Source: a virus. Taken from it: a stretch of DNA of 36,379 nt. The stretch is from IMG/VR virus record IMGVR_UViG_3300044990_001054, positions 1 through 36,379 of that record; one strand, given 5' to 3'. Of the stretch, positions 211 through 35,944 are shown piece by piece; position 1 is the stretch's first letter; every line of letters starts with the position of its first letter. Position numbers and translations under genes: made by a program. A model generated the notes under the pieces. That model was given only the letters and a program-made list of their open reading frames with translations. It made no database searches and was not told the origin of the DNA.

Positions 211-699
211 TTAATTCTGGGGAACGAGGTAGATCCGGAAGGTGTTCGTGCTTTCCGCCGTGCCGGAAGCGCCGGTATCGGACACGACGCGGATCTTGAC
301 GTTGCCGCCGATCCGGGGGCGCTCATACGGGGCGACAAGGACGGTGGCAGCATTACCGACTGCGTTGGTGGACGAGGTAATCGTCACGCCGGCCGTGGTC
401 ATGCCCATGACCCGAGGCCGAACAACGCCGGACGCCGCAGCCGTAACCTGCTTCGTGGCCAGGGTGTCGATGGCGGTCGTGCCGCTGAACGTGGCGACCG
501 TGAAGGTCTGCGTGTCGGCGCCGCCCTTGATGTATTCGACCTTGTCGAGCAGTCCGGCCACCGCGAGCTGGTCCGAATAGGACGTTCCGCCATTCGTGCA
601 AATGACGGTGACTTCCTGGTAATACTGGTCGGCCTGCACCGGCACGACGGCGGCCAACAGCGCCGCGATGATCCCGACTCCAACGATCAGCTTCTTCAT
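211..699 (-). CDS. Exported protein at the lambda gpD (head decoration) position
   Basis: The gene encodes 162 residues. I chose the ATG at 699 because AAAAGGAAC lies just upstream and the protein then begins with a clean signal peptide: MKKL, a hydrophobic core of about 15 residues and a cleavage site near VQA-D (residue 23). A GTG at 717 would add only six residues. The mature part is Thr/Ser/Val-rich and looks all-beta (for example VKIRVVSDTGASGTAESTN). It sits between the prohead protease and the scaffold and capsid genes, where lambda has its decoration protein D. A Sec signal on a capsid decoration protein would be unusual, so the role is uncertain. Confidence 0.7.
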   Translation of the reverse strand: MKKLIVGVGIIAALLAAVVPVQADQYYQEVTVICTNGGTSYSDQLAVAGLLDKVEYIKGGADTQTFTVATFSGTTAIDTLATKQVTAAASGVVRPRVMGMTTAGVTITSSTNAVGNAATVLVAPYERPRIGGNVKIRVVSDTGASGTAESTNTFRIYLVPQN

Positions 700-713: not shown

Positions 714-1523
714 TCACTTTGCGCGCATCGCCACCAACGCACCCGCGTCGGCAACGGCGCTGTCGTAACTCGTAACACTATCGACTAACCCGGCGGCCAT
801 CGCATCAGCCCCGAGGAATTCTTGACCCTCCATCGTTTCGTCCGACACGCCCGGGCGGGACGCTTTCACGTCCGCGCGGAACATGCCGCCGATCTTGTCC
901 ACCAGCCCCTGCACGCGCTTGATCATGGATTCGGGAACCGGCGTGCCAAACGCGCCGTCGCCCTTGTTCGCGCCGGACTTGATCAGGTACATCTTGATCC
1001 CGAGGCTGTCGTAGTACTTGGACACGTCCCCGATGAGCCCGTAACACCCGATTGACCCGACCATCGCCATGCGCGAGCAGTACACCGCAGACGCCCCGCA
1101 GCAGGCCCAGTAGGCAGCGGAGCACATCAGCCCGCCCGTGTAGGCGATGACCGGCTTGACGGCGGCGGCGGCCCGCACGGTGGCAGCGGCCTCATCCACG
1201 CCAAGGGTCTGCCCGCCAGGGCTGTCAACGTCGATCAGGATGGCGCTGATGGCGGGGTCGTTGGCGGCATCCTCCACCACTTCTGAAAACTGACTGGTTG
1301 AGCACGCCCCGCATTCGATGTCTATCTCGTCCGGGTGGTTCATCATCACGCCGTTCAGCTGGATGATGGCGAGGCCATCCGATACCGCGCCCTTGATCAT
1401 CTGGCGCTTTAGGTTGTCCGAGCTGCGCCGGTCGTCTTCCATTGCCAGGAACGAATGCAGGGCGGCGGGACGGATGGCCCACGGTTCGCTAAGGCGGTCC
1501 TGGATGCGGACTTCGTTTTTCAC
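714..1523 (-). CDS. Prohead protease, S49 (SppA/gpC-like) family
   Basis: This 269-residue protein resembles phage S49 serine peptidases (lambda gpC), which mature the prohead. Visible landmarks are IDVDSPGGQTLG at 97-108, the probable nucleophile Ser135 in GLMCSAAYWA, GSIGCYG at 156-162, and Lys187 in KSGANKGDGAF. The Ser-to-Lys distance of 52 residues fits the Ser/Lys dyad of short SppA proteins. It starts at GTG 1523, sharing GTGA with the stop of the portal gene, so the two are translationally coupled. Lambda C contains a nested scaffold (Nu3). Here the scaffold seems to be the separate coiled-coil gene two positions downstream. Confidence 0.9.
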   Translation of the reverse strand: MKNEVRIQDRLSEPWAIRPAALHSFLAMEDDRRSSDNLKRQMIKGAVSDGLAIIQLNGVMMNHPDEIDIECGACSTSQFSEVVEDAANDPAISAILIDVDSPGGQTLGVDEAAATVRAAAAVKPVIAYTGGLMCSAAYWACCGASAVYCSRMAMVGSIGCYGLIGDVSKYYDSLGIKMYLIKSGANKGDGAFGTPVPESMIKRVQGLVDKIGGMFRADVKASRPGVSDETMEGQEFLGADAMAAGLVDSVTSYDSAVADAGALVAMRAK

Positions 1524-2998
1524 GGTGTTTCCTCGGGCTTGGGTGCGGGCTTCCCGGACGGCGCCGACCCGCTCATCTGAACGGATGCGATCTTGTCAGG
1601 GTCGATCCCGTATTCCTTTGCCAGGGCCAGGCGCTCCTGTTCCTCTTTCGCCCGCTGCTTCCACACGTCCAGCCGGTTCCCGCCCGTGCGGCGGATGACC
1701 GACCCGTGCGTGATCTTACCGAGCAGCAGGTTCTTGGTGTCGGTCTCGGCTGCGTCCTGGGGATCCGCCCAGGTTGCCGGCGGCGGCTGCACGTCGATCC
1801 GGTCCCACTGGCTGCGCCCGTTCTTGTCAACCGGGGGCTTCGGGATGGCGCCGGACTTCCAGGCGAACGGCAGGGCGTAGCACCAGGCGTACTTTACGAA
1901 GTCGGTCCCGTCCAGCTGCCACGTATCCACCACACGCGAGAACAGCTCCCGGATGGCCTTGTTCTGGGACAGGTTGCCGCGCGTCGAGTCCATCATGGCC
2001 ACCTCATAGGGCAGGCCGATCGTCGAGCAGGCGGTCCGGATGTTGAAAACGAGGTGGCCCTCGAGGTTCGGGTTCGGCGTGGCGGGGCTCGCCAGAGTCA
2101 GCGTCTCCCCCTGCAGGCCGCGCAGGATCAGGCCGGCGCCGTCGAGCTTGTGGGCGCGGATCCCGTTTTGCGTAACGGCCCCCTTCGAGCTGGATCCGCG
2201 CGTGGCAAGCAGGTCCGTCGCGCCTTCGGTGTTGCTGACGCCGGCGATCTGGGCCTGCTTCTTCATCTGGATCAACGTGAACAGGCTGATCTCTCCGATG
2301 TCGGTGATGACATTGACCGCGGCCGCCAGCTCGGGCAAGGCGCGGATGGAGTCGAACCGCCACGGGCTCCCGTAGTGGTACACCTTCTCGGCCTCAACCC
2401 AGCGGCCCAGCGGCTTCATGAACGTGCCCTGGTCGTCCCGGTCGGCGATGTACCAATGCGTGACGCGCGGGCCGGACAGGAGCATGCCGTCATACTGCGT
2501 GGCCGTCTCGGGCACGCCAACCGGCTGACGCACGCGCTCAGCCTCGATGGCCTGCAGGTGCCCGTCATCGGTGAACAGGATGAACGACTCACCGGCCCAC
2601 AGGCGGGCGTCGACCAGGCCGCGCTGGATCCGGCGGAACGGGATCCGCCCGGTAACGTCGCAGTTCCGGCACCATGCGGCAAACCACTGCTCCGCGGCAT
2701 TGTTCCACGCGGGGTCATCTGTCAGGGCTTGGACTTGCAGCCCCGCCGGCCCGACGACGAAATCGCACATCCTGTCGCACAGGCTCTTGACGAGCGGCAC
2801 GTTGCGGCGCATGTGCAGGAGCTTTTGCCGGATGGTCTCCCGGTCATAGCCGGTGACGAAGTGGTCCTCGTCCTGGGAGACGGCGCTACCCCACGGCATG
2901 TCGCCGCGGTTGCGGTCGGATTTGGCCGCGTCGTACCCGCCGGCCATGATCCGGCCCGCCGCCTTGGCGTACTGCCATGCGAGCTTTACCCGGCTCAT
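1520..2998 (-). CDS. Portal protein, lambda gpB family
   Basis: The 492-residue product matches the lambda-type portal family (Phage_portal_2) in length and layout. The portal is the dodecameric ring at the capsid vertex through which DNA enters and leaves. Recognisable stretches include RRNVPLVKSLCDRMCDFVVG near residue 65, a tryptophan-rich segment (WNNAAEQWFAAWCRNCDVTG), and SQNKAIRELFSRVVDTWQ in the C-terminal half. The last about 40 residues are Lys/Glu/Pro-rich and probably disordered. It overlaps the genes on both sides by 4 bp (ATGA upstream, GTGA downstream), as expected inside a tightly coupled head operon. Confidence 0.92.
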   Translation of the reverse strand: MSRVKLAWQYAKAAGRIMAGGYDAAKSDRNRGDMPWGSAVSQDEDHFVTGYDRETIRQKLLHMRRNVPLVKSLCDRMCDFVVGPAGLQVQALTDDPAWNNAAEQWFAAWCRNCDVTGRIPFRRIQRGLVDARLWAGESFILFTDDGHLQAIEAERVRQPVGVPETATQYDGMLLSGPRVTHWYIADRDDQGTFMKPLGRWVEAEKVYHYGSPWRFDSIRALPELAAAVNVITDIGEISLFTLIQMKKQAQIAGVSNTEGATDLLATRGSSSKGAVTQNGIRAHKLDGAGLILRGLQGETLTLASPATPNPNLEGHLVFNIRTACSTIGLPYEVAMMDSTRGNLSQNKAIRELFSRVVDTWQLDGTDFVKYAWCYALPFAWKSGAIPKPPVDKNGRSQWDRIDVQPPPATWADPQDAAETDTKNLLLGKITHGSVIRRTGGNRLDVWKQRAKEEQERLALAKEYGIDPDKIASVQMSGSAPSGKPAPKPEETP

Positions 2999-3384: not shown

Positions 3385-3600
3385 TTAACTTTTCCTCCTC
3401 TTCTGCGGGCACGACCGATTACGCGTGGAGTTCATGTCCACCCGGCGGGCCAGTGACACCGTCCCGCAGCAGGCCGGGCAGATGATCTGTTCCAGGCCCG
3501 TCACCCCGACAATCTCACGGGAGCGCGGGGGCAACAATATGACCCGCGTGTCCGAACACCGGAAACACCCCCACACCCGTTCACGTGCCACTGGTTTCAT
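3385..3600 (-). CDS. Small zinc-ribbon protein, Com-like
   Basis: The product has 71 residues with two cysteine pairs, CFRC at 12-15 and CPACC at about 41-45, separated by about 25 residues. This spacing is typical of a zinc ribbon. The C-terminal tail is basic (RNRSCPQKRRKS). The ATG at 3600 lies inside the last codons of the large terminase gene and is preceded by GGAAGACG. Small zinc-binding proteins such as Mu Com regulate translation of phage genes, and others assist packaging. The sequence does not decide between these. It is not homologous to lambda gpW by eye. Confidence 0.6.
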   Translation of the reverse strand: MKPVARERVWGCFRCSDTRVILLPPRSREIVGVTGLEQIICPACCGTVSLARRVDMNSTRNRSCPQKRRKS

Positions 3601-5368
3601 CGTCTTCCTTCCCCCCGGCTTTCTTGACTTGCCGCCACTCCCAAAAACCGACCTTGATTGCCATCGCGATCAGGCACGCCTCCGCATCCCACCGATGGTT
3701 CGGCCGATCGCCCAGCTGCTCCCACTTCCCCGCCACACTCTGCTCTGCGGTCATCTGCTCCGCGTAATCCCTGTTCCGGGAGTAACCGGCCGGGATCAGC
3801 CACCGCGGCACGGACGGGTCCCCCGCGATGCACTTGGCCAGGATCTCCTTGGCCTTGTCCGGATCGATCGACAGCTCGTAGACCTGGCGGACCTTCCCCC
3901 GCTTCGCAGTTCGCTTCCCCTCGTCGATGTTCAGGGCGTGGCCATCGAACAGCGTGCCGCCTTTCCGGGTCACGCCCATGGTCACCAGGTAACCGTTCAT
4001 TCGGTTCTGGTACACCCACTCGAGCACCTCCTCCCCGCGGTAGCGGCGGTCCAGGGCCGTGAGCTTTGCCCCGTACTTCTCCGCCAGCTCGTCCAGCGCG
4101 GCGAAACCGGACAGCGTTCCCGACCACACCAGGCCGCTGTCCCCGTTTTTAGAGAACGTCCGGACAACCGCCTCGAGGTACCCCTTCTGCACGTCTGCCC
4201 AGATCAGCGTCTGGTAATCCACCCCGTCCTCGGCCTTCTCATACTCGCCGGAGTAGGGGGGGATGCTGACCCACTTCTGCCCCTCCTCGTAGGCCCCCTC
4301 CCGGTGCTGCAGCTGGTCCACCTCGATCTTGCTGTCCGTCCGGTCAAACGGCTCGCCCAACTCGCTGTTGATGAAGTCCTGCAGCTGCTCCGGGTTGGCC
4401 ACGGCGTGCAGCCACTTGCGGACCAACTGGTCCCACCGCACCCATGGTGCGTAGAGGCTGGACAGGTGCAGGCTCGCCATCGTGGGGTCAATCGAGACCG
4501 CCGTCTTTTTCAGCTCCCGCCCCTTCTGCAACATCGCTCCCTTGGCCGCGTCGTTGATCTTGCCCTTGCACCCGGCGCACTGGTAATACGCGTTCAGCGC
4601 CGCCGCATCGATCGACAGCTTGGAATCGAACTTCACCTGGGGCCACACCAGAATCTGCGGCATCCCGCAATGCGGGCACTTCAGGAAAAACCGGCGGCGA
4701 TCCCCGGGCAGGTACCGCCGGTGGATATGCCCCGTCGAACTCGTCGGGGTGGACAGAAGGATCAGCTTGCGCCGCGCCTGGTACGTCTTCGTGCGCTGCT
4801 CGAGCAGGGAGGGCGGATCCGCTTCGTTCTTGACCTTTGCCGGCCACTTGTCGATCTCGTCGCCGACGCCGTAGCGGATCGCCCGGCTGCTCAACTTCGA
4901 CGCCGAGTTGGATCCGACGAAATTGACCGTGTTCTTGCGGAGCTTGTACTGCAGTTTCGTCCAGCAGTTTTTCCGGTCATCCGGGATTAGATCACGCAGG
5001 CCGGGGGACTCCTCGAACACCGGCATGATCGACACCTCGGACTTGGACCGCGCGTCGTCCTCCGTCGCGTAGGCGAACAGCACGGGCCCGGGGTCGTTCT
5101 TGCACCAGTAGCCCAGCGCAACAACCATTATCATGGTGGCCCCGACCTGGGCGCCCTTCTCGATCACGACCGTGTTTATGTCCGGATCCTGGATCATGTC
5201 CAGGATGTCCCGGGCGTACGGCGCCAGGTCCGAACGATACTGCCCTGGGAAGTTGGACCCGGTCTTCGGGGGGATGATCAGGTTCTCCTCGGCCCACTTC
5301 CACATCGGCTCCTCGGGCGGCAGCTCGATGTAGCCCCACATCGGGTTCGGCTCACGCTTCGGTTTCAT
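3581..5368 (-). CDS. Terminase large subunit, GpA family
   Basis: This 595-residue packaging motor/nuclease belongs to the lambda gpA family. In order, it shows a Walker A-like loop KGAQVGAT at 71-78 (the Lys-first form used by gpA), a Walker B-like GDEIDKWP at 169-176, a coupling motif LSTPTSSTG at 205-213, and the family's zinc-finger insert with Cys231, Cys234, Cys264 and Cys267. The C-terminal half, with acidic residues in IWADVQKGYLEAVV and later DRPNHRWDAEACL, is the nuclease region that cuts concatemers. The start at 5368 follows GGAGAAAACTCG and overlaps the small-subunit gene by 17 bp. A GpA-type enzyme with a Nu1-like partner points to cos-type packaging. Confidence 0.95.
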   Translation of the reverse strand: MKPKREPNPMWGYIELPPEEPMWKWAEENLIIPPKTGSNFPGQYRSDLAPYARDILDMIQDPDINTVVIEKGAQVGATMIMVVALGYWCKNDPGPVLFAYATEDDARSKSEVSIMPVFEESPGLRDLIPDDRKNCWTKLQYKLRKNTVNFVGSNSASKLSSRAIRYGVGDEIDKWPAKVKNEADPPSLLEQRTKTYQARRKLILLSTPTSSTGHIHRRYLPGDRRRFFLKCPHCGMPQILVWPQVKFDSKLSIDAAALNAYYQCAGCKGKINDAAKGAMLQKGRELKKTAVSIDPTMASLHLSSLYAPWVRWDQLVRKWLHAVANPEQLQDFINSELGEPFDRTDSKIEVDQLQHREGAYEEGQKWVSIPPYSGEYEKAEDGVDYQTLIWADVQKGYLEAVVRTFSKNGDSGLVWSGTLSGFAALDELAEKYGAKLTALDRRYRGEEVLEWVYQNRMNGYLVTMGVTRKGGTLFDGHALNIDEGKRTAKRGKVRQVYELSIDPDKAKEILAKCIAGDPSVPRWLIPAGYSRNRDYAEQMTAEQSVAGKWEQLGDRPNHRWDAEACLIAMAIKVGFWEWRQVKKAGGKEDDETSGT

Positions 5369-16126: not shown

Positions 16127-16130
16127 GGGG

Positions 16131-19542: not shown

Positions 19543-19911
19543 ATGAAAGCTGCTTGTATCGCTGTGATGCTGTTTTGTGGGTGTGCGTCTTTTGGTTCAG
19601 GTATAGAACGGCTTGGCGGAGGTGTGGGTGGGAGCGCCCCGTATGTGTCCGTTGATGAAACACGCATCGACGCACAAATCGAGCGCGTGTTCACTAACGC
19701 GTTCATCTCATCTGATTGGAATTTTATGCACGGGGGCCGGCAACACGTCAGGATCATGGTCAAAGGGAAAGACGCCAGTAAACTGGCCGTTGGAGAGAGA
19801 TGGGCGGGCCACGTCACAAAAGGCGGCACATTCAAAGATATAGAGGGTCAGCCTTACCGGGTCTATTTCGCCGTCCCTCCTCCGACCAATCCGCCGAGCA
19901 AACGAAAATAA
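19543..19911 (+). CDS. Small predicted lipoprotein encoded between repressor and integrase
   Basis: The product has 122 residues. It starts with MKAACIAVMLFCGC, a short charged start, a hydrophobic core and Cys in a lipobox-like LFCGC, followed by Ala-Ser, so it is probably lipidated and exported. The mature part contains a beta-rich stretch (DWNFMHGGRQHVRIMVKGKD) and a Pro-rich end. AAGGGGAAAGGCC precedes the ATG. A TATACT at 19517-19522 could be a -10 for it. Its stop overlaps the integrase ATG (TAATG), so the two are coupled. Expression from a lysogen would make it a candidate lysogenic-conversion or superinfection-exclusion factor. Confidence 0.65.
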   Translation: MKAACIAVMLFCGCASFGSGIERLGGGVGGSAPYVSVDETRIDAQIERVFTNAFISSDWNFMHGGRQHVRIMVKGKDASKLAVGERWAGHVTKGGTFKDIEGQPYRVYFAVPPPTNPPSKRK

Positions 19912-21286: not shown

Positions 21287-22561
21287 TCACGGCCGGCACC
21301 TGGTGAACTGCCATTGCATCACGGGCGGGCGCGGCAGGACCGTCCTCGAGCGGGCGGTGATCACATCGTTGGTCCCGCCCACGAATGCCGGCAGGTCCAG
21401 CAGTTCCTGGATCAAGGGCGTGTCGGCGCCGTCGAATGCGAGTCGGGCCAGATAGCCGGTTGCGACGCCAGTTGCCGTCACAGAGTAAACCGAGCCCGTG
21501 AAATATGCGAAGTTGGTGGGAGCGAAAGCGTCCTGCGCGCTCGAGATGCCTCCGGTCGTGGCGATGCTCAGATATATCGTGCAGACCGCCCCGGTGGCCA
21601 TGTGAAACACGGGCACGATGTTGGTGGCCGAACGCCGCTCGATTGCGGACGCGCCGAGCCCTGACGCCTCGACGAGCGCGCCCCTCCGGTATCCGTCACC
21701 TTCGTCGAAAAAGAGCAGGCGGAGCCCGCTGCGCGCCCGGTAGACGGTCAACTCGGAAGCGATCAGCCCGGCGGCCACGGACACGGGCGCAGTCGTATAG
21801 GCCACGTCAAAGGCGGCGGTCTTGCGAGCGGGTGTGTAGCCGGATAGCAGATCGAGGTTGTTCGACGCATACCACGCGGGCGGATTTGTGAACAGCCCTG
21901 GTCCTTCAGAGTGAAAAAACCAGTAGGAGATCCCCGGCAGACCATAGAAAAGCAAATCGTCACGTTGCCCCGGAACGCCCCAGTTCGTCGGCACAAGCGG
22001 CTCGGGGTTGTATGCCAGATAGCTACCGGCGTCACCCCACAGGCGGCCGCCCTCAAGCTCCGTGTGGCCCAGGCAGTTGGACATGAGGCGCAACGCGCGG
22101 AACGCCTCCCAAAGGGTGTTCGTCATGACGTACAGTCCGACCTCGGCGCCGTAGACCGGCGCGCCCGTCCACCCGACAGTCCAGAGCGGCCGCCCGTCGC
22201 CCGGACCGACACCGGCAGCGATGAACAGGTTGGAGACCGTCCACGGCGTTGCGCTGGTGGAGGTGTAGGACTGCAGGTAGGACGGCGCCAGCGCTTCAAC
22301 CTCGTCGAGGACGGCCTGCATCTGCGCGTGCGTAGGCTGGTTCGGCAGGTTGGTGAACGTGCTGAAACTCCACCCGTTTGAATCGCCGGAATGGGGCGTG
22401 GCCGCCAGCGCTGCCCTCCGCTCGTTGATCCCCTCCAGCAGCTCGGCCACGTCGTCCGCTGTCACGTAGAGGCCGGGGGCGGCCGGGAGATAGTACAGCG
22501 CCGCCCCGCCCGTCAGGAGCGCCGCAGCGGCCAGGCCATAGGCATAGCGGCGGATCGTCAC
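21287..22561 (-). CDS. Last late gene; exported or membrane-anchored protein, possible receptor-binding protein
   Basis: From the GTG at 22561, overlapping the upstream stop as GTGA, the product has 424 residues. Residues 5-27 are a hydrophobic signal or anchor (YAYGLAAAALLTGGAALYYL). The rest is rich in Thr, Tyr, Trp and Gly (GISYWFFHSEGPGLFTNPPA) with many predicted strands, like extracellular or fibre proteins. It is the last gene of the late operon before attP, where tail fibres, receptor-binding proteins or conversion genes are common. I recognise no domain, and the function is open. Confidence 0.65.
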   Translation of the reverse strand: MTIRRYAYGLAAAALLTGGAALYYLPAAPGLYVTADDVAELLEGINERRAALAATPHSGDSNGWSFSTFTNLPNQPTHAQMQAVLDEVEALAPSYLQSYTSTSATPWTVSNLFIAAGVGPGDGRPLWTVGWTGAPVYGAEVGLYVMTNTLWEAFRALRLMSNCLGHTELEGGRLWGDAGSYLAYNPEPLVPTNWGVPGQRDDLLFYGLPGISYWFFHSEGPGLFTNPPAWYASNNLDLLSGYTPARKTAAFDVAYTTAPVSVAAGLIASELTVYRARSGLRLLFFDEGDGYRRGALVEASGLGASAIERRSATNIVPVFHMATGAVCTIYLSIATTGGISSAQDAFAPTNFAYFTGSVYSVTATGVATGYLARLAFDGADTPLIQELLDLPAFVGGTNDVITARSRTVLPRPPVMQWQFTRCRP

Positions 22562-23121
22562 GGCGCCCTCGGCGGGCCGAAGTTGGCCGGGACGTCGAGG
22601 CGGCCGGACGCGTGCTGGGTGAAGACCCGCGTGCATGGTGTCACGATCGTGTCCGCCTCAGCCGTGACCCGCCATACGCTGAGCGGGAACCGCTTGACCA
22701 GCCCGGCCACGTCGTCAGTCGGGTAAACGTCGTCCTCGGTAAACAGCACGGTCACCACGCCGGTGGCCAGCTCGGCGTTGACGTACAGCCAGTAGTCCCC
22801 CGGATCCGTGGGGTAGGCAGCCAGGTAGGGCGTCCCGGCAAACGCCTTGACGTGGGTCTGCCAGGCCTCGTCCAGCACTTGGTTTGCCCAGGTGATTGGC
22901 CCGCCGGTGACTTCCACGCCGGATGCCGTTATGTCCTGGAACCAGGCCTGCTCGTCACCGTCATCAGACTGCGGCCGCGGGACCTGGTGGTACATGGTGC
23001 CGACGCCGGGGATCTTCTCGGCCCGGATGGTGGCGGAGCTTAGCGGCTCAAGATCCCGCACATCGCCCCGGATCGCCTCGCACCACAGCGACATAAACCC
23101 CTTACGCGTCCACGCTCTCAT
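22558..23121 (-). CDS. Late-region protein of unknown function
   Basis: The product has 187 residues, starting at the ATG at 23121 which overlaps the upstream stop. It contains PGDYWLYVNAELATGVVTVL and FPLSVWRVTAEADTIVTPCT, which look like beta strands, and no signal peptide or membrane span. It lies in a tightly overlapping group (ATGA and GTGA junctions) with the DUF1353-like protein and the exported last gene. It may be a distal tail or assembly protein. No family is recognised. Confidence 0.6.
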   Translation of the reverse strand: MRAWTRKGFMSLWCEAIRGDVRDLEPLSSATIRAEKIPGVGTMYHQVPRPQSDDGDEQAWFQDITASGVEVTGGPITWANQVLDEAWQTHVKAFAGTPYLAAYPTDPGDYWLYVNAELATGVVTVLFTEDDVYPTDDVAGLVKRFPLSVWRVTAEADTIVTPCTRVFTQHASGRLDVPANFGPPRAP

Positions 23122-23675
23122 CCCACCCCCATCGGTACGATGTCATCGACATCCGGCGGCTCCGGTGGCCCGATGGGCTCCGGGAGCTTCCCGGCCTCGG
23201 TGTAGCCGCACGCCCAGCCGAACATCCGGACGGCCGCCCAGATTGCGCCGGCCTTGAACCGGCCGCGGGGCCGCTCAGTGCAGCGGCTCATGGTGTGCAG
23301 CAGCGCGTCCGCCTCGGATCTGGTGACCGGCGTCGGCCGCCAGACGGTCTCCCCGAAGGCCTTGACCCACAGCCACCCGATGTCGTAAACGCGGTCGTGG
23401 AAGGCGTATTCGATCCCCTCCTTGCGGACCAGGCGCTGGCCGGAGAGGGGTATGGATCCGAAGTTGAACCGGAAGGACTGGCCCGGCAGGCACGGCCGGA
23501 TCTGGTCCCCGTTGTCCTGGACGAAGGTGCAGGGCGTGTCCGGGTGCAGGGTGAAGGTGAAGTCCTGGGACTCGTGCCAGCGGAGGACCTTACCGTTCTC
23601 GGGCGGCAGCAGCCGAGCCTCCCAGCCTTCCCCCTCCCGCTCGTTTAGGAAGTAGCCACGGGCGCGCGGGTTCAC
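23118..23675 (-). CDS. DUF1353-like phage protein
   Basis: The 185-residue product fits the DUF1353 pattern: FNFGSIPLSGQRLVRKEGIE, then the conserved FHDRVYDIGW, then TRSEADALLHTMSR and AGAIWAAVRMFGW near 150-162. DUF1353 proteins are common in phage late regions, often near lysis or tail-fibre genes, and their role is unknown. The start is GTG at 23675, overlapping the previous stop. The C-terminal 25 residues are Pro/Asp-rich. Confidence 0.7.
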   Translation of the reverse strand: MNPRARGYFLNEREGEGWEARLLPPENGKVLRWHESQDFTFTLHPDTPCTFVQDNGDQIRPCLPGQSFRFNFGSIPLSGQRLVRKEGIEYAFHDRVYDIGWLWVKAFGETVWRPTPVTRSEADALLHTMSRCTERPRGRFKAGAIWAAVRMFGWACGYTEAGKLPEPIGPPEPPDVDDIVPMGVG

Positions 23676-24040
23676 GGCTGCACCGCATATGCGCGCGCCG
23701 GGTGCTCAGATGCGGCCGGAGCTTTCGATGCCGCGTGCTTTTCCCACAGCTTGAACGCGCTGTAGCAGATCCCGCCGCCGACCAGGTTGGACGCCACGGT
23801 GGTAACGATAATCACTCGGGCGAACGCCTTGACCGTCTGAAACGGGATGTAGCCCATGGCGTACAGCGCCTGGATGGCCTCCACCACGTCAAAGTGGATG
23901 TGCCCGCACGGCGTGCGCTTATCTGACCGTTTGTGCTCGGCAACCTGTTCGACGGCAACCCGCGCGCGCTGCTCGATCTGCGACATGGCCGAGTCGTTGG
24001 CGGCCTGCGCCGTGTTCGCTAAAATGTCGATCAGTCCCAT
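23672..24040 (-). CDS. Small membrane protein, possible holin
   Basis: From the ATG at 24040 the product has 122 residues. A helical N-terminal half (DSAMSQIEQRARVAVEQVAE) is followed by one hydrophobic segment, RVIIVTTVASNLVGGGICYS, at about 77-96, and a charged, Ala-rich tail. A GGGGGTGGTC ribosome-binding region precedes it. Membrane proteins of this size in the distal late region can be holins, but with only one clear membrane span and no adjacent endolysin this remains a guess. HTPCGHI-like residues (RTPCGHIHFD) could bind metal. Confidence 0.6.
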   Translation of the reverse strand: MGLIDILANTAQAANDSAMSQIEQRARVAVEQVAEHKRSDKRTPCGHIHFDVVEAIQALYAMGYIPFQTVKAFARVIIVTTVASNLVGGGICYSAFKLWEKHAASKAPAASEHPARAYAVQP

Positions 24041-24050
24041 GACCACCCCC

Positions 24051-25100
24051 CTACTGCTTCACAGTTTCAACGTTTACCAGGTACAGCGCCCCCTTGCGCG
24101 CCACCGCCAAGGCCGCGCCCTGACTCGTGGTGACGGCGGCCGCATAGTCCCCGGCGCACAGCACGGCGGGCTTGCAGGCGCCCGCCCGCACCCCGTCCAC
24201 GTCCGCATACATAATGTTCCCGCCGAGAGTCCAGAAGGCCACCACGCGCTTGCGGATGACGCAGGCATAGACGGGGTGGCGGGGCATGCGGGAAGCCGGC
24301 CCGATGGTAAAAAGGACGCCGGGGGCGATCAGTGCCACGCCGTCCTTGACGAGGTTCATCCGCAGATAGCCGTCCACCGCCATGAAGAAATAGCACGCGT
24401 CCCCGTTGGCGCAGATCCCGACGTAGCCGTAGACATCGTCGCCAGCCTTCGGGAACACGTCGCAGTCCACCACGTCTACCCGGCCCGTGTGGCCGCGCCG
24501 CATGACGCGGCTGTTGTCTTTCGACGAGCACCCGCCGAACCCGCGCCAGCCGCCTGGGGCAGCGGCCAGGTGCTCCCCCGTGGCGCCGATGGAGTCGGTC
24601 CCGAGCCGCACCCGCGTCTGGGTGGCGATGTCGAAGATCTCGTATGCGCCCATCTTGGACCACAGCTCGACCTGGGCAGGATCGTCGCCGTCGAAGATCG
24701 GGCGGACGCCGCCGTTGGTAAAGCCGTTGCCGCGAAACATCGCCGGGCCAGGCGTTTTCCCGTCAAGGATAATGCACATGGCCGGGCCGTGGTTGGCGGT
24801 AGTTTCCGCGCCCTTCATCCTGTTCCGCCAGGCGACAACATCGCCGACGGTGCTCGAGGCCACGTAAGGCGTGTAGCAATCCACCACGGGCATGTTGTTC
24901 GGCCCTTTCGCCGAGGTCGCCCGCGCCACGATGAAGTGGTCCCAGCCCCCCTCACGGATCCGGAAATAGCGGACGGTCTTGTCCGACCTGTGGGCCGCGA
25001 TCCGCGGGCGCTTGTCGGGCCCCATGGCGATGCTTACGCCGTCGATCCCGACCATGTCGAGCGAAGTCTCCTTGACCACCCTGCACGATACCGTTTTCAT
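24051..25100 (-). CDS. Late-region protein, possibly beta-propeller-like tail component
   Basis: The product has 349 residues and no signal peptide. The sequence consists of many short strands with turns, such as RVDVVDCDVFPKAGDDVYGY, RHPVYACVIRKRVVAFWTLG and AALAVARKGALYLVNVETVK. These alternate in a way that suggests a beta-propeller or another all-beta repeat fold. It has 11 cysteines, more than most of its neighbours. It may be a receptor-binding or tail-tip protein. I recognise no named family. Confidence 0.6.
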   Translation of the reverse strand: MKTVSCRVVKETSLDMVGIDGVSIAMGPDKRPRIAAHRSDKTVRYFRIREGGWDHFIVARATSAKGPNNMPVVDCYTPYVASSTVGDVVAWRNRMKGAETTANHGPAMCIILDGKTPGPAMFRGNGFTNGGVRPIFDGDDPAQVELWSKMGAYEIFDIATQTRVRLGTDSIGATGEHLAAAPGGWRGFGGCSSKDNSRVMRRGHTGRVDVVDCDVFPKAGDDVYGYVGICANGDACYFFMAVDGYLRMNLVKDGVALIAPGVLFTIGPASRMPRHPVYACVIRKRVVAFWTLGGNIMYADVDGVRAGACKPAVLCAGDYAAAVTTSQGAALAVARKGALYLVNVETVKQ

Positions 25101-25110
25101 GCTCCCCCTT

Positions 25111-25488
25111 TTAGTTCAGTGCCGCCTTGATCTGTGGGCTGCCGCCCCCGCTGATCGCATTGCTTACCGACCCCGTCCCCTCGCCACCGGCCGACCGCCA
25201 GAAGACGCCGTTCAGGACCGTGATCTTTTCCGGCGCCGGGTCCAGCCCCATGATGTAGACGTTGGTCCGGCAACCGCAGAAAAGGGCCCCCGCCGTCAAC
25301 GCTGCGGCTAGGCCTGGGAGGGGCAGGCCACGCTGACGGGCGGGGGCGAAAATAGGGGGAAACGGCGAACGGGTGACCCGACAAGCGGAGGGTACAAAGC
25401 CCCGGCCGGTTCCCCAGGTGGAAACCACGAACGCACCCGCGCCGTGGGCTGGACTGGTTTTGCTCGACGTTTCCAAAGTGTTCACCAT
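25111..25488 (-). CDS. Small protein with internal lipobox-like segment
   Basis: The frame from ATG 25488 encodes 125 residues and overlaps the end of the upstream gene by 7 bp. Residues from about 55 to 74 form a hydrophobic stretch ending LTAGALFCGCRTN, a lipoprotein-signal look-alike, but it is far from the only ATG start. No convincing internal start was found. If a non-standard start near residue 45 is used, the product would be a lipoprotein of about 75 residues, possibly a spanin-like outer-membrane piece. The C-terminus is Gly/Ser-rich. Confidence in the exact start is low. Confidence 0.45.
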   Translation of the reverse strand: MVNTLETSSKTSPAHGAGAFVVSTWGTGRGFVPSACRVTRSPFPPIFAPARQRGLPLPGLAAALTAGALFCGCRTNVYIMGLDPAPEKITVLNGVFWRSAGGEGTGSVSNAISGGGSPQIKAALN

Positions 25489-26744
25489 GTCACGTTCACC
25501 AATCCGTTGGATGACCCCGACTTAATCCGGAGCCCGTTGGACCAGTACAGCCAGGTGTCTCCCGACAACTCGAAGCGCGGCGCCTGGACGGGAACGCTGA
25601 ATTTAGCCCGTGCGGTTGCCTGAACGGCGTTGCTCACGGACACGCGCCAGAACGCCCGGTTGCCGGCAAGGGTGTTGCTGGCGGTGATGGACATGTAGCC
25701 GGCCGCTGCATCGTTCGTCGACAAGGGGCGGGCTGTCGTCCAGCCGCCTGTCATCAGGTTCGTGCTGGTCTGGAGCCGGAAGACGCCGGCCAGCCCATTG
25801 GTGGTGAATACCAGCGTGGATATGGTGCCGGTGCAGTTGGTTATGAGCCAGGGGTACGGGTCCATGGCCTCGATTGCCAGCACGGGCGACACTGCGTCGC
25901 TCTCGTGGGCCAGGGTCAGGTATCCGTTTGGCTTGTATGACCAGGTGAACCGCTGTTGGATGCTGACCCCGTCATCGATGCGTGTGCCGGCCCGGACGAT
26001 GAGCGGGGACAGCGCGGGGTGTCCCGACCACAGCGAAACGGCGTCCTGGACAACCGCCTCATAGTAGCCCTTGGACATGGCCAAATAGTCCGTCTGATTT
26101 GTTTTCCCCTGCGCGGCCGCCGGATGCTTCACGAGCAGCGACATCCCGCGGAGGTCATTGGTGTTGCCGACCAGGTCCCGATCAGCATACACGTCGATCG
26201 AGAACGCTTCGATGTAGCCCTCGATCGTGGGCGGGACACCGGGGTAATTCAACTGCTGCATCCGTCCGGTGAGGGTGGCGGTCCGGCCGTCAGGCGCGAT
26301 TCGGGTCGTGAGCGTGTAATCACGGCCGGTGTCAGTCGTGCGAACGGCGTAGATTCGCTGGTCTTCGAATAGCAGTGTGATGGTGACCACACCCTCGTTG
26401 GTGCTGGCAACGGTGGCCGGGGTGAACAGCGAGATCAGGCCATTCGTCCAGTAGGCCGTCCCGGACAAGCCGACCGTGTAGTCCTTCTCCTGGATGGCCT
26501 GGATGGGGCTGGTCCGGATCGTGGTGCGCGCGTCGAATAGCGTGCGGCCGCCGCTGGTCAATCCATCGCCGATCTTGATTTGGATCGGTTCCCCGTCAGG
26601 AAACACCCCGACCGCCATTTCCCCGTCTTCCAACACAGGCGTTTCCGTGGGGCCGACTTTAGGGACGAACAACTGCGCCGCGCTTACCAGGCACGCGGAG
26701 CTGCAGATCATGGCAAAGACCGCTATAGTGGCTGTTTTCCGCAT
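25482..26744 (-). CDS. Exported fibre-like protein
   Basis: The product has 420 residues. A Sec signal (MRKTATIAVFAMICSSACLV) with likely cleavage near VSA-A starts the protein. The segment just after it, LEDGEMAVGVFPDGEPIQIK then IGDGLTSGG, resembles the N-terminal domain of phage tail-fibre and tropism proteins, where an IKIGDG motif is common. A later segment, FRLQTSTNLMTGGWTTARPL to AFWRVSVSN, matches a beta-sandwich repeat frequent in secreted proteins of Verrucomicrobiota-like bacteria. The combination suggests a fibre built from host-type modules. It lies beside the protease-bearing fibre. Confidence 0.7.
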   Translation of the reverse strand: MRKTATIAVFAMICSSACLVSAAQLFVPKVGPTETPVLEDGEMAVGVFPDGEPIQIKIGDGLTSGGRTLFDARTTIRTSPIQAIQEKDYTVGLSGTAYWTNGLISLFTPATVASTNEGVVTITLLFEDQRIYAVRTTDTGRDYTLTTRIAPDGRTATLTGRMQQLNYPGVPPTIEGYIEAFSIDVYADRDLVGNTNDLRGMSLLVKHPAAAQGKTNQTDYLAMSKGYYEAVVQDAVSLWSGHPALSPLIVRAGTRIDDGVSIQQRFTWSYKPNGYLTLAHESDAVSPVLAIEAMDPYPWLITNCTGTISTLVFTTNGLAGVFRLQTSTNLMTGGWTTARPLSTNDAAAGYMSITASNTLAGNRAFWRVSVSNAVQATARAKFSVPVQAPRFELSGDTWLYWSNGLRIKSGSSNGLVNVTW

Positions 26745-26747
26745 GGC

Positions 26748-28805
26748 TTAAAACTCCGTGTAAGGGGTGACGTCAAGGTAGGAAAGGGTCTCAGGATCGC
26801 CCCAAGCCGCGATCGCCGCCTGGATCTCCTCCAGATACGAGTGGACGGACGGGCCGCTGGTCGGGTAGTAGAGGCAGAACAGCAGCACGAAGTCCATGCC
26901 AGTGCTGAACAGGACCGGCTGGGAAGAATCGCCGCTGACCGGGTAGTGCCGGAAGAGGGCGCGCCAGGCAATCCGCTCGGCCGCCTTCCACCAGCTGATC
27001 CCGGTGTATCCGCGCTCGTTCCAGCCTTCCGATCCGCCGACTACCAACTGAAATTCATGGGCCCCGAAGTGGACCTCCCCGCAGGCCAGCGGGATCTCCC
27101 TGATGCCGGTCGGGAGCGCGGCGGCCGGATTCGCCAGCACCTTGGCCACGGGCACGGGGATCTCGGTGTCCAGGCGGATCATGGCGATGTCCGCCGCGAC
27201 AAGGACTTCCGCGTCGACAACCGCTGTCCAGACGCCGTTTGTCGAATCCACCCATTTGACGGTATCGCCTACCTGGGGCCTGAACGATGCATGGGCGGCC
27301 GTGATAGCGTGCCGGGGCGTGATCAGGACGCCGCCGCCATAGTATGGTTGCGCCCGACTGTTCCAGGCCGCCACACACTCCGGGGCAGGGCGGATCCAGA
27401 GGTTGGTGGACCTGGTGAATGCAGTGCCGTTGGTGTTGTACGCGCTGAACGTCCGCATGGTCGCCCCGGTGGTCCCGACGCCGGCAGCGACATTCGAGAT
27501 GATCGCCGCCCGCAGGCTGCCCTCGGCGCCGTCCCAGTACCGGTCGATGGCCATGCCTTCCGTTCTCATCACCAGCACGTTGGTGCGGCCGAACGTGGCC
27601 GCCGTGACGGCTGCCGTGACCACGCCGTCGGCCAGGTGCGTCAGGTATCCGTTCGAGGAAACGGAAGCCCTCTCCGCCGGCTCGACGGTGAAGTCCAGAT
27701 CGAAGAACGAATGCTGGTCGGAGATCTGCGCCACGCGGTCGTACCGCACATTATTGAATCCCTGGCGCTCAAGGACCTGGTCCAGGTTGGTCCGGTACGT
27801 GGTCGAGTCAGGGCACGAGGTTGGGGACAACGCCCACACCAGGTTGAACCATTCCGGATTTCGCCAGGTGCCAGGGGAAACGACGGACGGCCAACTCGAG
27901 CGGGTTTCGCCAGCCCACCGCAAATAGCGGAAGTCCATCTCGAATATGTCGTTGTGGAGGTTCGGGTGCGCTGGCTCGTTGGCCAGGCGTAAAATGTTGG
28001 TAGGGCCCATGCTGATTACCCACGTCCCGTTCGCATTGTTCCAGAAAATCCCCTTCATGGTCTCCGGGTCGTCTGTAGCATTGCTGCCGAGGACAATCCG
28101 ACGAGGGAAAGTAACGTCCTCGTTTTCATCGGGCTTGAGGTAAAGGTTCGTCGAATGGTCGCCCCAGGCCTCGACGACGTCTACCCGGCCGCTGACCGCC
28201 AGCACCCCGGAGCGCGCAGCGGTGTCAGACGAGCCGGCCGCGGCAAGCACATAAGCAGCATCCGCCCGGGCTCGGGCCACCGCGTCGACCATGTTGCTCG
28301 GGATCTGCCAGGGGCCGACGTAGCTGGTCCCGGTGTCTCTCTGTTGAACGTGGGCCATGGACCGGTGCACAACGCCGACCGACGTGTTGGTGACCCCGCT
28401 CCCGTCCGTCTGGAAAAGAGTGATGAACGACCAGTAGTTCGATGCCGGCATGGCCGCCCACTGGGGCGGGACCGTGAAGCGCACCCGGCCGGTGGCCGCG
28501 TAGATCGTACCCGTGGCCCACAGGTAGACGTTGGAGTTGCCCGGGTCATCACTCCGATCGGCCACAATGGACCAGATAGCCGTCAGGTTTGTCTGACCGG
28601 ACCAGTCTGCGGCGTTGGTGCCGGAGGCCGTGCTCCAGTGGTCGAACACCAGGCTTTCCCCCTGGTACCAACGGAGCATGACGGACGAGGGGACCTCCGC
28701 CTTTGCCAGCGCGGTGGTGGCCGTCAGATACCGGATGTTCAACTGCCCGAAGCAGGACCCGGCCACAAGGATCAGAACCGCCCAAAGATTAGCCCGTACC
28801 GCCAT
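26748..28805 (-). CDS. Fibre-like protein with signal peptide and C-terminal trypsin-like protease
   Basis: The product has 685 residues from the second of two tandem ATGs (28808 or 28805), which GGGGGAG precedes. Residues 2-20 are a signal peptide (VRANLWAVLILVAGSCFG). The middle is fibre-like and includes EAWGDHSTNLYLKPDENED, similar to the WGxH...YL motif of phage fibres. The last about 200 residues form a chymotrypsin-fold protease: GGGVLITPRHAITAAHASF with His505, VAADIAMIRLD with Asp539, and SGDSSQPVLF with Ser627, where GDSG is GDSS. The order and spacing fit an S1-type triad. It may cut host surface proteins or process virion proteins. Confidence 0.8.
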   Translation of the reverse strand: MAVRANLWAVLILVAGSCFGQLNIRYLTATTALAKAEVPSSVMLRWYQGESLVFDHWSTASGTNAADWSGQTNLTAIWSIVADRSDDPGNSNVYLWATGTIYAATGRVRFTVPPQWAAMPASNYWSFITLFQTDGSGVTNTSVGVVHRSMAHVQQRDTGTSYVGPWQIPSNMVDAVARARADAAYVLAAAGSSDTAARSGVLAVSGRVDVVEAWGDHSTNLYLKPDENEDVTFPRRIVLGSNATDDPETMKGIFWNNANGTWVISMGPTNILRLANEPAHPNLHNDIFEMDFRYLRWAGETRSSWPSVVSPGTWRNPEWFNLVWALSPTSCPDSTTYRTNLDQVLERQGFNNVRYDRVAQISDQHSFFDLDFTVEPAERASVSSNGYLTHLADGVVTAAVTAATFGRTNVLVMRTEGMAIDRYWDGAEGSLRAAIISNVAAGVGTTGATMRTFSAYNTNGTAFTRSTNLWIRPAPECVAAWNSRAQPYYGGGVLITPRHAITAAHASFRPQVGDTVKWVDSTNGVWTAVVDAEVLVAADIAMIRLDTEIPVPVAKVLANPAAALPTGIREIPLACGEVHFGAHEFQLVVGGSEGWNERGYTGISWWKAAERIAWRALFRHYPVSGDSSQPVLFSTGMDFVLLFCLYYPTSGPSVHSYLEEIQAAIAAWGDPETLSYLDVTPYTEF

Positions 28806-29610
28806 CATACATCTCCCCCTTCCATTTATACGCGCCAAGCCACTGCTCGACCAGGGTCCACGACCTGTTGACCACGTCCGAGTCAGGCGGGAGCCAAAGC
28901 CACTCATACGGGACCAGCTTCCAGGCGCCGGTCGTGTCAACGTCCCGGAACTTCGGCTCCTTGATCGGGGCGGAGATGCCCGCGAACGGCGTCACTTTCC
29001 ACTGGTTCTCGTATGTCAGGTATGCGTCGATGTTCGATCGGTTCGCCCAGGTCGTCGTTTTTGTGATCGTGTGATTCGCCCGCATGGCCCCCGTGTACCC
29101 GGCAGCCTTCAACGCCGCGTACTTCTTGAAAGCAGCCGGGAGCGCGCTCGAAGCCATCACCACGTCGAGCTTCCCCTGGGAGATGAGCTTATCGATCAGG
29201 TTCAACCGCTGCGCCCGGGCCTGGTTATCCGGTGACGTCGGATCCCCCTCAGTCCCCCATGTTCGGATCCGCGCCAGCTCAATCTCGACAGTGCTCTTGC
29301 TGGTCGACCAGCGGACCGTGATCGGCGCAACGGCACCGCCCTCGCCCCCGCCGCCGCCCGCCCCGCCGGATCCGGCCTGAGTCCCGAAGGTGGCGGTCAA
29401 GACACATGTGGACCCGTCCGGTGAGGGCGTTATCGTACGGGCGCCCGCCGCTTTCAACTTGGCGTAAGTGGCGGCCAGATCAGGGTACGCGCAGCCCCAC
29501 ACTTCCGTGGTCACCTCTCCTCGGTCCGCGTCCCAGCTGGTATACCGATGCCGCATGACAGATTCGGTGACACCTGCTGCGCGGTAGACGATGATGGGGG
29601 AAACTGGCAT
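28789..29610 (-). CDS. Tail protein immediately after the tape measure, unknown family
   Basis: The product has 273 residues, and its ATG at 29610 abuts the tape-measure stop, with GGAGGATTAG just before it. Residues 1-80 form one domain; a Gly-rich linker (GSGGAGGGGGEGG) at about 80-92 leads to a second domain containing ITVRWSTSKSTVEIELARIR and WANRSNIDAYLTYENQW. In long-tailed phages the gene after the tape measure usually encodes the distal tail or tail-tip protein. I see no Dit or gpM signature, so the assignment is positional. It has no signal peptide, unlike the next genes. Confidence 0.6.
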   Translation of the reverse strand: MPVSPIIVYRAAGVTESVMRHRYTSWDADRGEVTTEVWGCAYPDLAATYAKLKAAGARTITPSPDGSTCVLTATFGTQAGSGGAGGGGGEGGAVAPITVRWSTSKSTVEIELARIRTWGTEGDPTSPDNQARAQRLNLIDKLISQGKLDVVMASSALPAAFKKYAALKAAGYTGAMRANHTITKTTTWANRSNIDAYLTYENQWKVTPFAGISAPIKEPKFRDVDTTGAWKLVPYEWLWLPPDSDVVNRSWTLVEQWLGAYKWKGEMYDGGTG

Positions 29611-31164
29611 CTAATCCTCCAGGGCTTTCGCAGCCTTCTCGGTATTCGTCTTGATGGCGGCCAGTTTCTCGTTGCTGTTCTTGGCGATGTCCGCCGCCTT
29701 CTGCTGGGCCTCCGCCATGCTCCGTGCATAATTGCCTGTCCCGCCCATGACGCCGCCAAGCGCCTCAATCCCGGTCAACCGGGGGGTCCCCACGGTGATG
29801 GCGTCCATGTCCCGCTGCCGGCGCTTCAATTCGCCCGACACTTCCTGTTCCATCCTGGTGTTCAGCGCGGCCTTCTTGTCGTCCATGGTGGCGTCCCGCT
29901 GGAACCGCCGCTCGAGCTCTTTGACCAGCTCCTTGTAGCGGAAAATCATGTCGGAGATCTGCTTGAGGCTGAACATGTCGGCATTGTCTGCCAGCGCCTT
30001 GTATATCTGGCTGACTGATGTGGTCATGTCGTTGTTGGACATCCCCTCCATTTCCGCCTGGATCGACTTGCGGAACTGCTCCTCGCCTTCGGACCCGAAG
30101 AACGCATCCAGCACACCCTGCCGCCGCTTCGCAGCGTCCTCCTGGGCTTTCTGCCGACGCTCGTCCGTTTCCTTTTTCTTGGCAGCGGCGATCGACGCCT
30201 GCACCGCCGCCTGCCGCTCCGTTTCGATTTGATCGTCGGTTTTACCGGTGGCAGCGGCGGGCCCATCCCCGAAAACGTCTCGGTCCATCCAAGCCAGGAA
30301 CCTATCAGGGGCGCTGACAATCGAGCCGGCGATACGCCGGCCCATATTCCGCATCGCCCCGCCTGCGCTGGAGAAGTCACCCTGGGCTTTGGCCAGCCTA
30401 CGGTTTGCCTCCTCGAGGTCCTTATACTTTTCGAGGAGCGGATCCAGCCCGTTCCTTGCCAGATCCTGGAACGCATCCCGGGCCTCGGAAGCGGAGTTCC
30501 GGCCGAGCACGTCATTCAGCAACCCGATCCCGGTGGCCGCCCCGTCTGTCTTCTGCAGCAGCTCCTGGAGCGCCTTCGTCGGGAGCATGGCCGCCCACTT
30601 CTCGCCATCGATTCCCGCGGCCGCCAGCTTCTCGATTGCGCCCTTTGCGCCATCGCCGCCTCCGGCAATCGTGTCCTGGAAGTCCCGGACCTTCTGCAGC
30701 CATGTGAGCACCTTCTCCCCGCTTCCCCCAAAAGATTCGGCGGAGGCCTGTAATGCCACCAGCTGACCTGCGGGGATCCCGAGCGCCTTGGCGTAGTCCT
30801 CGATAGCGTCTGCCGCCGCCATGGATGCCTGGGTAAACGCCGTCACCCTATTTACGGCGAAGGCCAGGCCGACGGCCGGCGCCAACACCTTCAGACTCCC
30901 GGCCAGGCCCATCACGCTCGAGTCCGCCGCGGTGATCTGCCCGCCGGTCTGCCCAAGCACCCCGTTCATCTTCCGGAGCCCCTCGACGAGGGTGGGCATC
31001 TTCTCGGAGTCGCCAAGGGTCCGGGCCAGGTCCAGCTGCTGGGCCCGGGCCTTCATGTCGTTCACGGCCTTCATGACGCCCTGAGACGCCTTGCCGAGTT
31101 CGGTCTGCAGCCCGGACGAATCGCCGTTTATCTTTACATTGATGGTTGGATCGTTGCCCGCCAC
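29611..31164 (-). CDS. Tail tape measure protein
   Basis: The 517-residue protein sets tail length and is ejected ahead of DNA. The start (INVKINGDSSGLQTELGKAS) is typical of tape measures. A hydrophobic helical segment follows (VMGLAGSLKVLAPAVGLAFA near 85-104), then long amphipathic helices rich in Ala, Lys, Glu and Gln (QAAVQASIAAAKKKETDERR) up to the end. The start is GTG at 31164 after GGAGGGCACC. It is short for the family (lambda gpH has 853 residues), predicting a tail well shorter than lambda's if it is a siphovirus. Confidence 0.87.
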   Translation of the reverse strand: MAGNDPTINVKINGDSSGLQTELGKASQGVMKAVNDMKARAQQLDLARTLGDSEKMPTLVEGLRKMNGVLGQTGGQITAADSSVMGLAGSLKVLAPAVGLAFAVNRVTAFTQASMAAADAIEDYAKALGIPAGQLVALQASAESFGGSGEKVLTWLQKVRDFQDTIAGGGDGAKGAIEKLAAAGIDGEKWAAMLPTKALQELLQKTDGAATGIGLLNDVLGRNSASEARDAFQDLARNGLDPLLEKYKDLEEANRRLAKAQGDFSSAGGAMRNMGRRIAGSIVSAPDRFLAWMDRDVFGDGPAAATGKTDDQIETERQAAVQASIAAAKKKETDERRQKAQEDAAKRRQGVLDAFFGSEGEEQFRKSIQAEMEGMSNNDMTTSVSQIYKALADNADMFSLKQISDMIFRYKELVKELERRFQRDATMDDKKAALNTRMEQEVSGELKRRQRDMDAITVGTPRLTGIEALGGVMGGTGNYARSMAEAQQKAADIAKNSNEKLAAIKTNTEKAAKALED

Positions 31165-31182
31165 GGTGCCCTCCGCCGATGG

Positions 31183-31614
31183 TTATCGGGTGATCAAAAA
31201 GTACTGCATGCCGAGATCGTTTGTAGGACCCGCGAAATAGACGGAGGCGCCCGGGGCCAGCGGGCCCTGGAAGACCTCTCCCGGCGCCAGCCGGACCACC
31301 GGCAGGATCGCCCCGACGTTTGTGGGTCCCATGTCCACCCAGTAGTTGGTGGCCGTGTTCTTGGCCCAGAGGTAGCCCGGCGCCGTCACGCTCCCGACGG
31401 GAAGGGCCACGGGCGTGACGCCAACGGAGAGGATGCCGGCGGCGAACCGGGGGGTGGCGTTGGTCATGTCCAGGACCACGTCCCCGCTTTTCTGGGACTG
31501 CACCACGGATCCGCTCGAGATGGCCAGGCTGGAGTTGACGGTGATCTCATCGGCCGCAAACGCAACGGCGGCCAGGTGGACGGCGATTACCAGGAAACGG
31601 GATTTAATTGACAC
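31183..31614 (-). CDS. Small exported protein between chaperone and tape measure
   Basis: The product has 143 residues from the GTG at 31614 (GGAGGAGACCC upstream). It starts with a Sec signal (MSIKSRFLVIAVHLAAVAFA, cleavage near FAA-D). The mature part is beta-rich: ITVNSSLAISSGSVVQSQK, VTAPGYLWAKNTATNYWVD, and RLAPGEVFQGPLAPGASVYF. The same MGPTN sequence occurs here and in the protease-bearing fibre. An exported protein in the middle of the tail gene cluster is unexpected. It overlaps the chaperone-position gene by 11 bp, so it is co-translated with tail proteins. Confidence 0.7.
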   Translation of the reverse strand: MSIKSRFLVIAVHLAAVAFAADEITVNSSLAISSGSVVQSQKSGDVVLDMTNATPRFAAGILSVGVTPVALPVGSVTAPGYLWAKNTATNYWVDMGPTNVGAILPVVRLAPGEVFQGPLAPGASVYFAGPTNDLGMQYFLITR

Positions 31615-35047: not shown

Positions 35048-35944
35048 TTAGGCGGACAGCAGGCGGATGGCCGCGGCGTTGCACTTGGCGAATCCGGGCA
35101 TGACCTCGAACCGGCCGTAGGTGATGCCCTTGCCGGAATCGCGCCAGCGCCGGTAGCTCATCACGACTCCGCTCTCGGGGTCGCTCAGGATCTGGTTGAA
35201 CTCGGCGGACGATTCGCCGCCGATGGACACGGGCAGCACGGGGGCCATGGCGCACGCGAGCGCCGAGGTGTCGCACACGATGCCGGCCAGGTTCTGCGAG
35301 TTGGTCGGCAGGGCGCTGTACTTGAACGTCTGCATGCCGCCGAGCGGGGGCAGGATGCCCGTCTCGAACGACTTGCTTCCGCCCGTGGCGATGATCAGGC
35401 CCAGCGTCGAATCGCCGACCGCCTGCCAGGCATAGGACGAATTCAGGATCAGGGAGCGACCGCGCTCGCTGACGCCCTTGTCGTCGGCCTTCTTCGCAAG
35501 CTGGGCGATGTCCGCCATGCCGAACTCGGAAACCGGAACCACCAGCTTGTCGGTGGCCAGGTCGCCATAGTTGGCGGCGGTGAAGTACGCCAGGGCCGCG
35601 TCGAGGTACGCCTTCGCGACGGCGTAGGAGTGCTCGATGGCGCGGTCCATGAACGCCGTCAGGGGGTCGCGCCCGTCCACCGCTTCCCACTGCGAAGCAA
35701 TCGGGTCGAGCAGCGTAACGGACGCCGTGGCGGACGCGCCGCCGCTTTCGCCATCCGCTCCGAGCACGCGGGTCGCGGCGGTCGCGGCGCCACGGATCGG
35801 CACCTTGACGACTTCGCCCTTGAGCATGCTCTTGGTTTCCGCCTTGAACGAAAAGGCGTTGATGGAAATGAGCGCAGCCTTCAGCGCGCCGAGGGAGTCC
35901 TTCATCAGGACGGTTTCGTTGAATCCGGTATAGGTCGTGGCCAT
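35048..35944 (-). CDS. Major capsid protein
   Basis: The product has 298 residues. Segments such as VKVPIRGAATAATRVLGADG near 46-65, YAVAKAYLDAALAYFTAANY near 107-126, and SVSIGGESSAEFNQIL-like sequence toward the end fit a HK97-fold capsid subunit in size and layout. It lies after the protease, decoration-position and scaffold genes and before the head-completion genes. The start ATG at 35944 is preceded by AAGGATACACGATC. No single motif proves the fold; position and size make it by far the best candidate. Confidence 0.75.
   Translation of the reverse strand: MATTYTGFNETVLMKDSLGALKAALISINAFSFKAETKSMLKGEVVKVPIRGAATAATRVLGADGESGGASATASVTLLDPIASQWEAVDGRDPLTAFMDRAIEHSYAVAKAYLDAALAYFTAANYGDLATDKLVVPVSEFGMADIAQLAKKADDKGVSERGRSLILNSSYAWQAVGDSTLGLIIATGGSKSFETGILPPLGGMQTFKYSALPTNSQNLAGIVCDTSALACAMAPVLPVSIGGESSAEFNQILSDPESGVVMSYRRWRDSGKGITYGRFEVMPGFAKCNAAAIRLLSA

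Follow-up and report, generated by a model that had tools for sequence, protein, structure and literature searches.

The DNA stretch analyzed here (referred to below as the window) is the whole of the record of an uncultured virus and comprises 36,379 bases. Since the first 160 bp are repeated directly at the other end, with a single mismatch (positions 1-160 versus 36220-36379), the record closes, giving a genome of approximately 36.2 kb. The late genes are located on the minus strand, in the order terminase (phrog_15), portal (phrog_21), head protease (phrog_53), the gene at 211-699, a scaffold-like gene and the major capsid protein gene (phrog_283), followed by small head-tail genes, the gene at 31183-31614, the tape measure gene (phrog_2276) and a fibre module extending to position 21287. 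A tyrosine integrase-like ORF (19800-21047, plus strand) adjoins the last late gene and suggests that the phage may be temperate. The features considered are the following.

3581..5368, minus strand: terminase large subunit, phrog_15; without signal (context)
1520..2998, minus strand: portal, phrog_21; without signal (context)
714..1523, minus strand: S49-type head maturation protease, phrog_53; without signal (context)
211..699, minus strand: D-position protein, 162 aa; Sec signal at residues 1-23 (631-699), N-terminus MKKLIVGVGIIAALLAAVVPVQA followed by DQ, predicted cut between VQA and DQ
35048..35944, minus strand: major capsid protein, phrog_283; without signal (context)
31183..31614, minus strand: 143-aa protein encoded just upstream of the tape measure gene, GTG start; Sec signal at residues 1-20 (31555-31614), N-terminus MSIKSRFLVIAVHLAAVAFA followed by AD, predicted cut between AFA and AD
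29611..31164, minus strand: tape measure protein, phrog_2276; without signal (context)
26748..28805, minus strand: 685-aa fibre-module protein; signal at residues 1-20/21 (28743-28805), of the signal peptidase I or the lipoprotein type, N-terminus MAVRANLWAVLILVAGSCFG followed by QL
25482..26744, minus strand: 420-aa fibre-module protein; signal at residues 1-23 (26676-26744), N-terminus MRKTATIAVFAMICSSACLVSAA followed by QL
25111..25488, minus strand: 125-aa ORF containing a hydrophobic stretch in its interior, as well as a lipobox-like site, LFCGC
21287..22561, minus strand: 424-aa product of the last gene of the late operon, GTG start; hydrophobic N-terminus at residues 1-25 (22487-22561), MTIRRYAYGLAAAALLTGGAALYYLPAAPGLYV

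The claim made in a sequence-only reading that five of these proteins begin with signal or anchor sequences was borne out: four of them carry textbook Sec signals, and that of 21287-22561 is borderline. Their scores ranged from 7.4 to 9.7 on a home-made, rule-based signal scorer, which was checked on nine well-known E. coli signals, and all the other genes in the window scored 5.3 or less at their called starts. A positively charged n-region, a hydrophobic core and small residues at -3 and -1 are present in 211-699, 25482-26744 and 31183-31614, and less cleanly in 26748-28805, where a lipobox (VAGS before C) fits too. The N-terminus of 21287-22561 is hydrophobic after an RR pair and has no clean AxA site; it may be a weaker signal or perhaps a membrane anchor. 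Judging from these features, the five N-termini are probably for the most part genuine Sec signals of the signal peptidase I type, possibly of the lipoprotein type in one case. Shine-Dalgarno-like matches of 4-5 bases precede all five starts. Internal (dual) starts giving a cytoplasmic form were also considered and rejected, since none that is shared and preceded by a ribosome site is present.

Five of the 25 structural genes in the window scored above the threshold, as compared with 10 of the 717 present in 80 prophage regions (p = 7e-5). Since this prophage control is made up mostly of genes for the head and the tail shaft, with few fibre genes being covered, six cultured phage genomes were added, in which three of 116 structural genes exceeded the threshold (p = 0.005); these three false positives are one tape measure protein and two minor tail proteins. 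The false positive rate of the scorer is approximately 1-3% per gene. A strict count over the group of related phages described below gave 14 of 95 late genes, versus 4 of 734 in the control prophages, a few of the 14 being probably lysis or lipoprotein genes. One gene of the group scored as carrying a signal (L106, 2599-3192) was rejected as a false positive on the evidence of its homologues.

The sequence-only reading rightly placed 211-699 at the D position: this gene lies between the head protease gene (714-1523) and the capsid gene (35048-35944), across the circular junction. The protein has no family match, with no hit in PHROGs and an E value of 0.5 in hhalign against phrog_5707, and is not demonstrably a member of that family on the basis of these comparisons. 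Searches of annotated phages with this protein and with those encoded at 26748-28805, 25482-26744 and 31183-31614 gave nothing significant, no independent relative of 21287-22561 was found, and the AlphaFold models were uninformative (pLDDT 38.5 for 31183-31614 and 36.9 for 211-699). In the C-terminal third of the 26748-28805 protein, the trypsin-like motifs TAAHA, ADIAMIRL and SGDSSQP were recognized by eye in this order; searches for a trypsin-like serine protease (S1) profile or structure gave no Pfam hit and no relevant PDB hit. A BppU-like N-terminal domain, considered for the same protein, was not confirmed (no Pfam match; hhalign E 0.07). The ORF at 25111-25488, which overlaps the end of the 25482 gene, possibly encodes an envelope protein.

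The nearest IMG/VR records are the near-identical 3300044991_002081, the fragment 3300034101_004949 and 3300046003_006693 (L003). The last of these has only the fibre module in common with the window (83% DNA identity over 23842-28001), its head and tail being different. Since this module is common to two phages with unrelated heads and tails, it appears to move as a block. In the L003 homologue of 25482-26744, the mature protein is 88% identical and the signal is quite different in sequence and length; in that of 26748-28805, in which the trypsin-like catalytic residues are kept, the N-terminal 217 or so residues have diverged, yet there is a signal at the start. The L003 counterpart of 25111-25488 (10663-11043) has a lipobox-like site, FLTGC, conservation between the two ORFs being poor before the hydrophobic stretch and lipobox-like site and good after it. 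A possible signal-less counterpart of 31183-31614, of unproven homology, is located at L003 3644-4006.

In L003, the gene right after the capsid gene is also signal-bearing. When the capsid protein of L003 was used as a query, 32 related records were obtained, and the survey of relatives which had been proposed for checking the conservation of the signals came out in their favor: among these uncultured phages both the signals and the cleavage-site rule are kept. At capsid identities of approximately 38% or more, and where the downstream gene was readable, a signal was present on the gene immediately following the capsid gene in at least 12 lineages (L003, L108, L109, L116, L117, L118/119, L120/121, L122/123, L124, L125, L127, and L128). 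The boundary consistently consists of an AxA-type site, the A at the cut being followed by ALD, ADA, QDA or DF. In both the pairs where this could be judged, change has been faster in the signal than in the mature part; in the G504/G507 pair, 7 of the 20 signal residues have changed, with the signal character being kept, as have 6 of the 116 mature residues. Faster signal change was not seen in the pairs G501/G503 and L120/G503, because the mature parts have themselves diverged. With the more distant capsids (26-32% identity: L130, L132, L139, L140, and L141), no signal was found on the post-capsid gene, and since L126 and L131 are without the gene altogether, it must be dispensable. In L108 (3253-4035) and L109 (3529-4269), the post-capsid protein exceeds those of its relatives in length by approximately 110 residues, the conserved domain being separated from the signal by an additional one.

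Six of the post-capsid proteins match phrog_5707 (L003, 6e-8; L116, 2e-10; L144, 4e-10; L122, 2e-11; L124, 9e-4; and L120, 1e-3), and the profile gave no hit for L108 and L127. The existence of relatives without hydrophobic N-termini had been regarded in the sequence-only reading as evidence against its view of the signals. Such relatives do occur in the phrog_5707 family: the homologues located beside capsid genes in Pseudomonadota are signal-less in all the 11 cases examined, as are the L141 homologue (E 1.4e-22) and, by eye, a similar gene in a prophage of Omnitrophota whose capsid is related (E 7e-82). The finding nevertheless stands, and the alignment places the signal directly before the first residues of the signal-less proteins. 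As far as can be read from these alignments, this shows that a phage protein family which already existed has either acquired the signal as an additional element or lost it, and the wider distribution of the signal-less form points to gain rather than loss.

The signals of the group are not confined to this gene. L120 carries two successive signal-bearing genes after its capsid gene (2708-3142 and 3209-3757), the second of which matches phrog_22694 (E 1.5e-26), the signal consisting of extra residues, and has a G503 homologue which is signal-bearing as well. Fibre-position proteins begin with signals in G501, G503, G504, G507, and G508, and the G501 29159 and G503 2314 proteins have the mature N-terminus in common and different signals. 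In L156, the protein encoded at 14561-17119 combines a Sec signal with a C-terminal Peptidase_S74 chaperone domain scoring above the Pfam cut-off. No convincing signal was found on the terminase, portal and capsid genes of the group. The signal pattern recurs across many independent records with GC contents of 45-65%.

Terminase scans of genomes in search of the host gave either nothing or mixed phyla at approximately 30% identity; at a guess from sequence style, the host may belong to the wider Planctomycetes-Verrucomicrobia group. Prophages of Omnitrophota and Cloacimonadota with related capsids showed no such signals, which led us to reject the idea that signals are a trait of deep-branching hosts generally; two hits obtained in these scans, both in tape-measure-like genes and dependent on shifted starts, were considered false. 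Two of the metagenomes yielding relatives are named in the literature: 3300033463 in a study on rumen data and 3300025586 in one on an Antarctic lake (PMC12149495, PMC8542988). In one study, the fact that signal peptides were lacking was taken to support a phage origin (PMC6199706). In the open-access literature, the coverage of which is incomplete, signal peptides were not found to be described as a trait characterizing the surface proteins of a tailed-phage lineage; this silence is weak evidence of novelty.

Export of the signal-bearing proteins is strongly supported by the predicted signals, and we infer from the sequence data their actual export and cleavage, their putative membership of the virion and the timing of their assembly. 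The fact that genes of the same kinds keep a signal in related phages, even where its sequence differs, and that one of these genes has signal-less relatives elsewhere, suggests that some tailed phages may export outer-coat proteins through the host membrane before using them. The signals front the product of the neighbor of the capsid gene and putative fibre or baseplate-tip proteins, and their distribution fits proteins which are located on the particle exterior and could be attached as a final step. According to the reading we prefer, to which we give an even chance, particle-surface families would have gained Sec export, and their products would collect in the envelope and either join the particles at lysis or act where they are. 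During late expression, the signal-bearing proteins would be exported, the signal would be removed by signal peptidase, and the mature proteins would be kept on the envelope or within the periplasm. Meanwhile, proteins without signals would complete the heads, the tails and the packaging of DNA in the cytoplasm. Lysis would then bring the particles to the exported proteins, which would attach from outside; these proteins may also act from the envelope. It counts against this reading that the post-capsid gene is dispensable, that the D-position protein of the window is not demonstrably a phrog_5707 member, and that the fibre-like domains with signals may stem from surface proteins of the host by capture. 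In its stronger form, which we put forward tentatively, the proposal is that one tailed-phage lineage would complete its particles outside the cytoplasm, with Sec-secreted capsid-associated and receptor-binding proteins attaching at or after lysis.

The main rival is that these are non-virion accessory (moron-like) proteins which, in an infected cell or a lysogen, belong to the envelope or are secreted, for example as adhesins or blockers of superinfection, and whose genes are placed among structural genes like those of Lom and Bor in lambda. Real signals are what this explanation calls for, and the absence of the post-capsid gene from L126, L131 and the inspected cultured phages with related capsids, along with the envelope-like features of 25111-25488, is consistent with it. 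It is a possible explanation which we nevertheless doubt, in view of the signal-less homologues occupying the same place after the capsid gene in other prophages, the tail-fibre chaperone domain of one signal-bearing protein and the filling of the operon's fibre position by signal-bearing genes in several phages. It is improbable that the hydrophobic ends are uncleaved or do not serve for export, acting as inner-membrane tethers or in assembly, with the proteins joining the particles from the cytoplasm. The anchor-like end of 21287-22561 would suit such a role, and predictions cannot prove export; retained tethers are less likely, however, because the cleavage rule is kept, and an AxA-type boundary maintained next to a freely changing hydrophobic core is more in keeping with cleavable signals than with structural helices. 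The suggestion that the hydrophobic ends serve another assembly purpose is thus argued against by the kept cleavage-site rule and the faster-changing signal residues, and of the interpretations offered in the sequence-only reading, secretion as non-virion proteins and assembly across the membrane are those which stay as candidates. An artefact of misassigned start codons, or of hydrophobic ends arising by chance where ORFs are GC-rich, although the scorer is home-made and has the error rate given above and the choice of start matters for 26748-28805 and 21287-22561, where longer ORFs exist, is very improbable and largely refuted by the Shine-Dalgarno-like sites preceding the signal starts, the lack of a shared internal start, the controls, and the recurrence of the signals at conserved positions in independent records.

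If particle-surface proteins do pass through Sec, the rule that phage-derived proteins lack signal peptides would fail, such genes would be wrongly assigned to the host secretome when metagenomes are annotated, and the periplasmic or post-lysis maturation of tailed phages would become testable. If the proteins are exported without being part of the virion, domains of the capsid and fibre types would have been put to use in the envelope by a phage lineage; this would also be unusual.

Tailed phages are assumed to complete their particles in the cytoplasm. The Lom and Bor proteins of phage lambda are signal-bearing exported morons encoded among structural or late genes, and the proteins described here resemble them in being signal-bearing and encoded among tailed-phage late genes; unlike in Lom and Bor, the signals here occur on families which are elsewhere signal-less beside capsid genes, as well as on fibre-position proteins, and there are several of them per genome. 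Filamentous phages extrude through the membrane, and the putative particle proteins studied here would resemble their coat proteins in using the host export machinery, whereas the head, packaging and tape measure genes are those of a tailed phage. Phage P8625, a cultured siphovirus-type phage of Verrucomicrobia, one of the possible host groups, has a genome of approximately 33 kb, and its authors, unlike what is described here, found no signal peptide in 52 proteins using SignalP (PMC4642752). The phrog_5707 proteins, a phage family with no known function encoded beside the capsid gene, are matched by the post-capsid proteins of the related phages and not by the D-position protein of the window, and the Pseudomonadota members examined differ in lacking the signal. 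Lastly, the L156 protein has the domain of the Peptidase_S74 (PF13884) tail fibres, but it begins with a Sec signal.
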